Shown in pieces: positions 56,084 through 58,615 of a stretch of DNA of 64,000 nucleotides (its first letter is position 1; every line of letters starts with the position of its first letter). Origin of the DNA: Methanolobus mangrovi (GTDB taxonomy: Archaea; Halobacteriota; Methanosarcinia; Methanosarcinales; Methanosarcinaceae); contig NZ_CP133594.1 of the NCBI RefSeq assembly GCF_031312535.1, positions 1,488,001-1,552,000 on the forward strand, given 5' to 3'. The position numbers and the translations under genes were made by a program. The notes beneath the pieces were generated by a model that did not search any database, was not told the origin of the DNA, and saw only the letters and a program-made list of their open reading frames with translations.

Positions 56084-56356
56084 TTATTGTTGTCCAGGAG
56101 TAACACTCTCAGCCTTAGACCTGCGCTTTACAACCTTCCGGACAGTCCTACCCCTGAAATTCACACCACCAACAAGCTGTACACCAGGTTTGCGTTTGAT
56201 AATTTCTGCATAATCGCCATTAAAAGTCGCGATTATGTTTTTGTTTGCAACCACTTTGACACGTCCACCAATACCAACAAGAGCTTTCAGAATGCCTTCT
56301 ATTTGAGAAGGAGTTGCATTATGTGCAACCCTAATAAGATGTGATTCAACAGGCAT
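56084..56356 (-). CDS. Small basic protein of unknown family (cassette gene 4)
   Basis: A 90-residue protein, family not recognised. Residues 1-60 look like a compact alpha/beta domain (MPVESHLIRVAHNATPSQIE, LKALVGIGGRVKVVANKNII), and the C-terminal third is strongly basic (GRTVRKVVKRRSKAE). It is the last gene of a four-gene minus-strand operon, six bases after the PASTA gene. It may bind nucleic acid or an acidic partner, by charge only. Confidence 0.72.
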   Translation of the reverse strand: MPVESHLIRVAHNATPSQIEGILKALVGIGGRVKVVANKNIIATFNGDYAEIIKRKPGVQLVGGVNFRGRTVRKVVKRRSKAESVTPGQQ

Positions 56357-56362
56357 AGTTCA

Positions 56363-57448
56363 TCACCTTGTAATCGATTTTCTTACAGAGGATAGACGTG
56401 AAGGCTGCTTGGCCGGCGATACTTTTGCACCAGGTTTCAGGACATCGATGTTGGCAGGTGATCTAACCAATTCAGGCTTACCAGAGACAGCAGCAAATTC
56501 CACCTTTTCAGTCCCAACTACAACATCGATGGGTGCATTAACATCAGCATACTCATTGGCGGCTACTGACTGATCAAGGATAGTACCCACCTTCAAGGCA
56601 TCAGGTTGCTCCGTCACTTTTCCCATCGTAAGCCTATTGCCCACCAATTCCTTTTTAGCAGAGTCAAGTGTCATTCCCACAACATCAGGAACCAGGACAG
56701 AAGTTATCTTTGAGATTACTATATCAACAGTATCACCAGATCTTGCAACAGAACTTCCGGAGGGGATCTGTGAAAGTACAGTACCCTGAATCAAATCACT
56801 TTCTTTTTCAGTAATCTCCCCCTGTACGAATCCGGCATCCTTTATTAGAGATAGTGCAGAGTCCACGTCAAGTCCGATAACATCCGGGACATCGATAAGG
56901 TCAGAGAACACAGGTTGCTTTGCTGAAGAACTGATGGTGAATTCCACCTCGCTCAGATTGCCAGCAGGGATAACATCATCTGCTTTAGGCAACTGGAAAC
57001 GCAGTTCATTGTCCTGAACAGCAAGGTTCGTCCTGAGCTTTATGCTCATCGAACTCACACTATAATTCACATTCGATGAAGTGGAATTCATAGTTACATC
57101 CATCTCTTCAAGTGAATCACGGAATGTTTTTATAAGATTGGATGAGGTCAGTTCCGGCCTCGTACGTGAAAGTTGTTCCAGTTGCTTTTCAATTTCAGCT
57201 TTCTCCTTGAGTATTTCCTGTACCCTGCTGTCAAGGATAGCATAATCCTGTTTTAGGTTCAGGTTCTCCTTCTTCAATAATTCCAGTGAATCGTCTTTTA
57301 ATACGAGTTCCTTTTGTATTGCCCCATATTCAGATTCCAGCCCTTCGATCGTCTTTTGAACCAAAGTATAGCTCTGCTTCTTTGCGGCTGCTGTTGTTGA
57401 CCTGTTCAAACGATCAATGTTATTTCTAAGTTCTATGATATCGACCAT
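56363..57448 (-). CDS. Coiled-coil protein with two PASTA domains (cassette gene 3)
   Basis: A 361-residue protein without signal peptide or membrane segment. Residues ~30-95 form a coiled coil; ~104-172 a beta-rich domain (VNYSVSSMSIKLRTNLAVQD); ~187-247 and ~252-312 are two PASTA repeats (VPDVIGLDVDSALSLIKDAG and VPDVVGMTLDSAKKELVGN); the tail is basic and Pro/Ser-rich. PASTA domains normally sit outside the cell on penicillin-binding proteins or Ser/Thr kinases and bind cell-wall muropeptides. Here, in a peptidoglycan-free archaeon and in a seemingly cytoplasmic protein, they more likely act as an assembly scaffold. Second-to-last of four cassette genes; a short space of 16 bases separates it from gene 2. 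Confidence 0.82.
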   Translation of the reverse strand: MVDIIELRNNIDRLNRSTTAAAKKQSYTLVQKTIEGLESEYGAIQKELVLKDDSLELLKKENLNLKQDYAILDSRVQEILKEKAEIEKQLEQLSRTRPELTSSNLIKTFRDSLEEMDVTMNSTSSNVNYSVSSMSIKLRTNLAVQDNELRFQLPKADDVIPAGNLSEVEFTISSSAKQPVFSDLIDVPDVIGLDVDSALSLIKDAGFVQGEITEKESDLIQGTVLSQIPSGSSVARSGDTVDIVISKITSVLVPDVVGMTLDSAKKELVGNRLTMGKVTEQPDALKVGTILDQSVAANEYADVNAPIDVVVGTEKVEFAAVSGKPELVRSPANIDVLKPGAKVSPAKQPSRLSSVRKSITR

Positions 57449-57464
57449 CCCATACCCCCGAGTA

Positions 57465-57872
57465 TCATTCCTTCACTACTTTGGAAGATGAAGGAACCGA
57501 CACTATCTTGGCTTTCAGAACACTTGAACCTTTAACATCATAGGAATTAAGAGAATTGTATGAAGCATTCAATGGTGCTGCACTAAGGACACGTTTGTAG
57601 CCCCTTATACGGTTCTTTGAGTCACGTTCTTCCTCATACTTCATTGATAGAGCCATCTTCAGTTCGATATCCACCTCTGGTATGTGATACCAGGTTGCTT
57701 CAAGGCCATAATCCTGAAGAGCCTCATCACCTGAGAGCTCGATTTGAGTGTCAATGGAATTACGATCAAGTGCCTTCTGAGTCTCTGCAATAGATTTACC
57801 CATCTCGCTCAATATTGTAGATAGAGGACTTACAAGTACCTCTTCAATATTCACATTACTACTGGATGGCAT
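57465..57872 (-). CDS. Cassette gene 2, paralogue of gene 1
   Basis: A 135-residue protein of unknown family. It shares three blocks with the 202-residue product of gene 1: an N-terminal amphipathic helix (ILSEMGKSIAETQKALDRNS), a central strand pair (YGLEATWYHIPEVDIELKMA) and a C-terminal beta segment (NASYNSLNSYDVKGSSVLKA). It lacks the ~50 extra residues found between the first two blocks of gene 1. No signal peptide or membrane helix. The upstream 70 bases hold a strong hairpin that may lower its expression relative to gene 1. A GGAGGT ribosome binding site precedes the ATG. Confidence 0.78.
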   Translation of the reverse strand: MPSSSNVNIEEVLVSPLSTILSEMGKSIAETQKALDRNSIDTQIELSGDEALQDYGLEATWYHIPEVDIELKMALSMKYEEERDSKNRIRGYKRVLSAAPLNASYNSLNSYDVKGSSVLKAKIVSVPSSSKVVKE

Positions 57873-57906
57873 ATACTACCTCCTTCAATAATCATAAAAA
57901 TAAATA

Positions 57907-57932
57907 ATCAATGCAGGAATTTCTGCATTGAT
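57907..57932 (-). terminator. Intra-operon hairpin between cassette genes 1 and 2
   Basis: A perfect 10-bp inverted repeat (ATCAATGCAG, six-base loop, CTGCATTGAT) is followed on the minus strand by TATTTATTTTTATG. It could be a partial terminator, an mRNA-stabilising 3' hairpin for gene 1, or both. Confidence 0.6.
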
Positions 57933-57942
57933 ATTACATTAG

Positions 57943-58551
57943 TTACTCAGCAGCCTCTTTTACACGGACTGTAGGAACAGCTCTTTCAGGTGCTGGTACT
58001 GGCTTAAGGGTAGTTCTCAGAAGACTGGTACCCTCCTCATTGAATGTATACTTGGACTTGTATGTTGCATCATAGGTCGATGTGTATGCAACATTGGTAG
58101 TGTTCTCAAAGCTAACCTTGGACTTACCGAAGAGGAGACCTGCAAGACCACCCGACTGGTAGCTGCCCTTTATCTTCGATTCGTTGGTGAACTTGAATTC
58201 TCTGCCATATTTCTTTTCTGTAGAATACTCCCTCTTCATTGAAATCGTCATCTTTACCTCAATGATCGATTCGGTGAATTCATAGAAACGTGGCTCCAGA
58301 CCATAAGTCAACAATGACATTGGCTGGTCGTTCGTAACCACATCTGTTGCGGTGACGTTACCATCCTCATCCACTGTTTCCTCTATATAGAGAATTACAC
58401 TCCCAGCCTCTAGTTCTGTCTCTGCAAGGGCCTGTGCTACATTGATAGAATTCATATCAAGTGCGGTCTGCCCTTCTGCGATGGCAAAAGCCATCTCTTT
58501 TATCATGTCCCCGAATGGGACATCTAACAATTTCTGACCAACAGATACCAT
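57943..58551 (-). CDS. Cassette gene 1, founder of the paralogous pair
   Basis: A 202-residue protein, family not recognised. Residues ~14-34 (GDMIKEMAFAIAEGQTALDM) are the helix shared with gene 2; ~82-115 (YGLEPRFYEFTESIIEVKMT) the shared strand pair; ~155-190 (AYTSTYDATYKSKYTFNEEG) the shared C-terminal strands. In between lies a Glu/Asp-rich insertion. It is predicted cytoplasmic and rich in beta strands, which suits a self-assembling structural protein. The general layout faintly recalls DUF2589-type proteins, but I cannot confirm a relation. GGGAGG six bases ahead of the ATG is a strong ribosome binding site; 14 extra in-frame codons upstream are unlikely to be used. First gene of the operon. 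Confidence 0.8.
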   Translation of the reverse strand: MVSVGQKLLDVPFGDMIKEMAFAIAEGQTALDMNSINVAQALAETELEAGSVILYIEETVDEDGNVTATDVVTNDQPMSLLTYGLEPRFYEFTESIIEVKMTISMKREYSTEKKYGREFKFTNESKIKGSYQSGGLAGLLFGKSKVSFENTTNVAYTSTYDATYKSKYTFNEEGTSLLRTTLKPVPAPERAVPTVRVKEAAE

Positions 58552-58569
58552 ATTAACCCTCCCAAATTT

Positions 58570-58615
58570 TAGGTACATTATAATATAAGACATTATAATT
58601 TAAAAGATTTTGCTA
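58570..58615 (-). promoter_or_regulatory. Cassette promoter region with repeated ACATTATAAT
   Basis: ACATTATAAT occurs at 58575-58584 and 58590-58599 (plus-strand reading), 15 bases apart, beside a TTTAAA TATA-like element. These lie 25-60 bases before the gene 1 ATG, a fitting place for a promoter and operator. Confidence 0.5.

Follow-up and report, generated by a model that had tools for sequence, protein, structure and literature searches.

Four neighboring genes on the minus strand of Methanolobus mangrovi, designated G1 to G4, constitute one unit that is kept or lost nearly always together. We tentatively favor an explanation, at a probability of roughly 45%, in which this cassette is one functional unit making a cytoplasmic hetero-oligomeric assembly, G3 being the coiled-coil spacer that presents PASTA domains and G4 an accessory component. 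The cassette lies in a 64,000-nucleotide stretch of DNA that was analyzed as a whole (the window), and its open reading frames (ORFs), separated by gaps of 70, 16, and 6 bases, were re-found where the initial annotation had placed them (Table 1).

Table 1 Features of the G1-G4 cassette in the window.
Feature	Position	Strand	Basis
BRE/TATA-like element, archaeal, conserved, upstream of G1	58598..58614	-	Alignment of nine upstream regions
G1, 202-aa acidic protein	57943..58551	-	ORF, start, alignments, model, hhalign to DUF2589
RNA stem-loop ATCAATGCAG/CTGCATTGAT, between G1 and G2	57907..57932	-	Conservation, z score, pairing
G2, 135-aa protein, shorter paralogue of G1	57465..57872	-	ORF, BLAST, alignments, hhalign
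G3, 361-aa protein	56363..57448	-	Pfam PF03793, model, Foldseek, alignment A7
G4, 90-aa basic protein, pI 11.3	56084..56356	-	ORF, alignment, profile searches

The survey of gene neighborhoods for co-conservation that the initial annotation had proposed revealed near all-or-none linkage in 101 genomes of Methanosarcinaceae, with gene order kept where checked. G1 was present in 35 of these genomes, G2 in 33, and G4 in 30; all three occurred together in 29 genomes and none of the three in 65. The remaining genomes contain either decayed remnants (G007, G032, and G086) or variants that have diverged (G080 and three members of genus g10). G1 and G4 reside on one contig and the same strand, no more than 3.3 kb apart, in 27 of the 29 genomes; contig ends interrupt this linkage in the other two (G038 and G087). 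Fisher’s test for co-presence of G1 and G4 gave a value of 2.6e-18, which takes no account of shared ancestry; loss of the genes as a block is therefore the stronger argument for a unit. G3 is found between G2 and G4, giving the order G1-G2-G3-G4, in the wide loci of Methanosarcinaceae and of one other family of the order. In seven genomes that belong to the same genus but lack the cassette, the oxidoreductase gene adjoins the uridylyltransferase or uL3 gene, leaving a clean empty site.

Decay of the cassette can be seen at two loci. A G1 fragment lies immediately downstream of an ORF that by eye is IscB-like in genome G032 (L130:6735-8269), and a lone G4 remnant persists in genome G086 (L135:8711-9004). 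Genus g11 has an additional gene directly upstream of G1 that encodes many PASTA domains (L041:11550-15524; 1324 amino acids in this locus).

As originally listed, the G1 ORF (57943-58593, minus strand) begins with an ATG at position 58593. Since the TATA element (TTTTAAAT, approximately 58605-58598) is only a few bases away from this ATG, the transcript should not include it. A second ATG, at position 58551, is preceded by a GGGAGGG ribosome site and coincides in alignment with the start position in eight relatives. We accepted the latter start and moved the upstream limit of the gene to it, which sets the length of G1 at 202 amino acids. The direct repeats described for the promoter (ATTATAATGT, at 58590-58599 and 58575-58584) are present, but the conserved feature of the region is the BRE/TATA-like promoter rather than the repeats. 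Alignment of upstream regions revealed no such repeats in relatives, and they arise in about 3% of shuffles; lacking conservation and obtainable by chance at this rate, they were rejected as a regulatory element.

The initial annotation regarded G1 and G2 as paralogues, and comparison by BLAST (approximately 1e-9) and hhalign (99.6%, E 8e-24) showed that the two are homologues. G1 comprises an N-terminal helix (residues 13-44) with invariant Gln28 and Asp32 followed by a beta-rich remainder, which bears a Ser/Thr-rich segment with a GGLAGLLFG turn. The predicted model of G1 is weak (mean pLDDT 55.7); it supports a long helix followed by strands and yielded no fold match in Foldseek. Neither G1 nor G2 matched an entry in Pfam, NCBIfam, or PHROGs, and PDB profile searches with both proteins returned nothing meaningful. 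The codon usage of G1 bears no mark of high expression, and high expression of G1 is thus not supported on this basis.

A link to the DUF2589 family (PF11655) emerged from profile comparisons. The DUF2589 model matched no G1 member at E ≤ 1, no G2 member at E ≤ 10, and nothing in the window’s own genome. When G1 was compared with the DUF2589 profile by hhalign, the result was 92.5% with E 4.8e-7 for one comparison, and the score of 50.3 compares with a maximum of 17.6 among 40 column-shuffled controls. Both the N-terminal QEL motif and the glutamine conserved in the helix lie within the alignment. These comparisons showed G1 to be a distant homologue of DUF2589, sharing common ancestry with it. 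Direct comparison of G2 with DUF2589 by hhalign was not significant; G2 is tied to the family because it is homologous to G1. DUF2589 genes resemble the cassette with its G1 and G2 in that two or three paralogues stand in tandem, as pairs or triplets in L083-L087, L113, and L119 from archaea and bacteria. However, neither a PASTA protein nor G4 was seen in the DUF2589 loci that were read, and the AVQDEMP-type helix that closes DUF2589 proteins is missing from G1. An example of DUF2589 is the AF0414-AF0417 region of Archaeoglobus fulgidus, which is reported to be up-regulated on lactate (PMC3949148).

The AlphaFold model of G3 contains a 94-residue helix (residues 2-95), a small alpha/beta domain (residues ~99-177), two PASTA domains (residues ~184-313; PF03793, 4.8e-23), and a tail of low confidence. 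The long helix and the two PF03793 copies agree with the earlier description of a coiled-coil/PASTA protein. PASTA structures were the sole Foldseek matches of G3, the top match being PDB entry 5e10 (E 2e-9). The middle domain resembles G2 weakly, with one of 40 shuffles equally good, and one fold common to G1, G2, and G3 may be suggested from this resemblance.

G3 has the PASTA fold in common with PASTA Ser/Thr kinases and PBPs (PknB, PrkC, and PBP2x). In contrast to these proteins, G3 is archaeal, and no kinase, transpeptidase, or membrane anchor accompanies its PASTA domains; several G3 relatives lack PASTA altogether. Indeed, one bacterial and some archaeal relatives keep the coiled coil and middle domain and are missing PASTA. 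These relatives show that PASTA is dispensable there and constitutes an optional arm, and hence that the core function is not to sense the wall. The stress that the initial annotation laid on PASTA was therefore off target, and the archaeon that it called wall-less is better described as lacking murein.

The product of G4 proved basic, as predicted, and contains a conserved GGINFRGRK-type motif. G4 matched no entry in Pfam or NCBIfam, its matches in PHROGs were insignificant, and a PDB profile search returned nothing meaningful. An I9-type propeptide fold, considered for G4, was rejected for want of profile support. No signal peptide or membrane helix was apparent in the G1-G4 stretches in a hydrophobicity scan, which peaked at 1.66 within the PASTA linker of G3; for three of the products, the absence of both had been claimed from the outset. 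The initial annotation could assign no product to a known pathway, and the profile and fold searches for a known family gave no confident match for G1, G2, or G4 and PASTA only for G3. Membership in a defense system was rejected, as the PADLOC matches consist of PASTA or coiled coil only.

Of 295 genomes surveyed throughout the phylum, 25 responded to searches with the G1 alignment; other orders and haloarchaeal-type genomes are represented among them. The G1-G2-G3 arrangement is retained in L103-L106, L109, and L110. Relatives of G4 are recognizable in L103, L104, and L110 as well as in L069, where the gene lies upstream of G1; the G4 equivalents of L104, L110, and L116 are only 6 to 17% identical to G4 of the window, so they are assigned by their position and by a short motif. 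On a Sphaerotilus plasmid, a G4-like gene occurs together with two relatives of G1, a small gene, and a gene for a coiled-coil protein in which the G3 middle domain is present and PASTA is absent. The bacterial search covered plasmids and, for Pfam families, fourteen mixed control genomes, and the bacterial range is underestimated; alignment A6 of G1 takes in no row from a plasmid record.

The G2 domain in genus g10 occurs in fusions with PASTA and with DUF4332/HhH modules; the fusion to PASTA is independent support for G2 and G3 working together. Loci of this genus (L053:6232-13103 and L057:830-6512) contain an enlarged version of the cassette, with two G1 relatives and with proteins that combine the G2 domain with PASTA and DUF4332/HhH. 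One of these proteins includes repeats like the C-terminal domain of L7/L12, and the loci also harbor TPR-like genes as well as a long gene whose product is basic and of low complexity. Three strongly diverged genes occur in a like pattern in genus g7 (genome G080, L055:6896-9235), one of them fused to a DUF4332/HhH region; their kinship with G1 and G2 is weak by BLAST.

Median non-synonymous rates relative to uL3 of the same loci were 0.67 for G1, 1.04 for G2, 1.67 for G4, and 2.86 for G3. In a gene that can be lost, stronger constraint than that on a ribosomal protein whenever the gene is present would be expected if it encodes a subunit with most of its surface engaged in contacts; other causes are possible. 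The stem-loop between G1 and G2 is followed by a T-rich run (57896-57906), and both are kept in 14 of 15 Methanolobus-type loci. The stem-loop has a z score of -4.2 in the window, and 97% of stem cells in the alignment are paired, with changes mostly to G-U. The hairpin sequence is confined to Methanolobus and one near genus; much longer predicted hairpins of unrelated sequence occupy the G1-G2 gap of Methanosarcina loci. The hairpin and T-rich run are a candidate leaky terminator or processing signal, which we read as probably lowering the expression of G2-G4 relative to G1.

These observations can be accommodated in a model in which G1 and G2 would be homologous subunits from a superfamily to which DUF2589 also belongs, each built of a helix and antiparallel beta strands. 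The subunits would pack through their helices and sheets, and G3 would join them via its small alpha/beta domain. The long coiled coil of G3 would act as spacer and dimeriser, and PASTA domains, variable in number, would be displayed by the protein as an interaction arm; for G4, a small protein, we envisage an accessory role. The hairpin and T-rich run after G1 would allow G1 to be made in excess over G2-G4. We infer the oligomerization, the roles of the parts, and the stoichiometry from features that fit an assembly, namely the paralogous subunits, the very slow evolution of G1, and the hairpin that separates G1 from the rest. Against this reading, the slow rate of G1 can equally mean many partners or a bound ligand. 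It may be speculated further that G1-G4 and the DUF2589 clusters represent a single, hitherto unnamed class of multi-paralogue assembly (a ring, a filament, or a shell) in the cytoplasm of archaea and bacteria, for which PASTA would be an optional cytoplasmic interaction arm and not a wall sensor; we regard this wider proposal as somewhat doubtful.

The cassette could instead function as an adaptor in signaling or in a conflict system, with small helix-plus-beta domains like Trypco2 (PF19631) as sensor-effector scaffold and PASTA, HhH/DUF4332, and TPR regions as arms, an explanation that we find unlikely. Trypco2 has been described as serving conflict systems of multicellular prokaryotes as an adaptor (PMC7159879, PMC10907252), among them the VMAP ternary conflict systems (PMC7159879). 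Like the G3 middle domain, Trypco2 is a small recurrent module with a short helix followed by strands, and by eye the modeled helix-beta-beta-beta order of the G3 domain appears to resemble the Trypco2 protein of L117. The fusions to DUF4332/HhH and the adjoining TPR-like genes in g10, as well as the patchy presence of the cassette, would also fit an adaptor. However, there is no sequence match: Trypco2 is unmatched in the window genome and among the families listed for G1, G2, and G3. Furthermore, no trypsin-like peptidase, MoxR-vWA, or other effector gene was seen adjoining or near the cassette in the loci read, where neighbors are housekeeping-like, and PADLOC similarity is confined to PASTA and coiled coil. 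Conflict genes are usually under weaker constraint, and the constraint on G1 exceeds what is usual for them. Membership of the cassette in Trypco2 was rejected because its Pfam model is unmatched in that genome and for those three proteins. The sole Trypco2 match among the 101 family genomes is a protein beside a subtilase-TPR protein in genus g7 (genome G086, L117:1213-3229).

Quite unlikely, in our estimation, is a membrane-active assembly in which the Ser/Thr-rich segment of G1 forms an amphipathic beta hairpin whose hydrophobic turn inserts into or coats the membrane and a ring is held together by the helices. Beta-type amphipathicity occurs in two flanking stretches of G1 (p 0.004 and 0.042, uncorrected and for segments picked by eye), and glycine and large hydrophobic residues are frequent in the turn throughout G1 and DUF2589 relatives (GWGWGS or GFGLWSS in place of GGLAGLLFG). 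Yet this segment is the lowest-confidence part of the G1 model, the cassette products have neither signal peptide nor membrane helix, and no pore-former was matched by profile or fold.

Empty sites, unrelated neighbors, and the lack of viral relatives make two further explanations very improbable. The cassette adjoins indolepyruvate oxidoreductase, UTP-glucose-1-phosphate uridylyltransferase, and uL3 ribosomal operon genes in most Methanosarcinaceae examined and might encode an accessory factor of these neighbors, which is largely refuted by the cassette-free genomes that keep the same neighbors directly adjacent and by the different neighbors outside the family (by our own assignment, genes for an MscS-type channel and a tRNA synthetase as well as a molybdopterin gene; by annotation, ilvD). 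Small genes of no recognized family, patchy presence, and one bacterial copy on a plasmid could point to a set of particle genes, virus-derived or mobile, that the archaeon has domesticated, but we rejected a viral origin, as no relative was present in the phage records or IMG/VR contigs searched, the syntenic site is common across genera, and base composition does not shift in the cassette region.

The cassette of G1-G4 is widespread, tightly linked, and strongly constrained, although family models are lacking for three of the four genes. Through it, the unexplained use of PASTA in archaea is linked to DUF2589, an uncharacterized family of bacteria and archaea. Methanogens that bear the cassette, set against close relatives with a clean empty site, provide a natural starting point for studies of its function.
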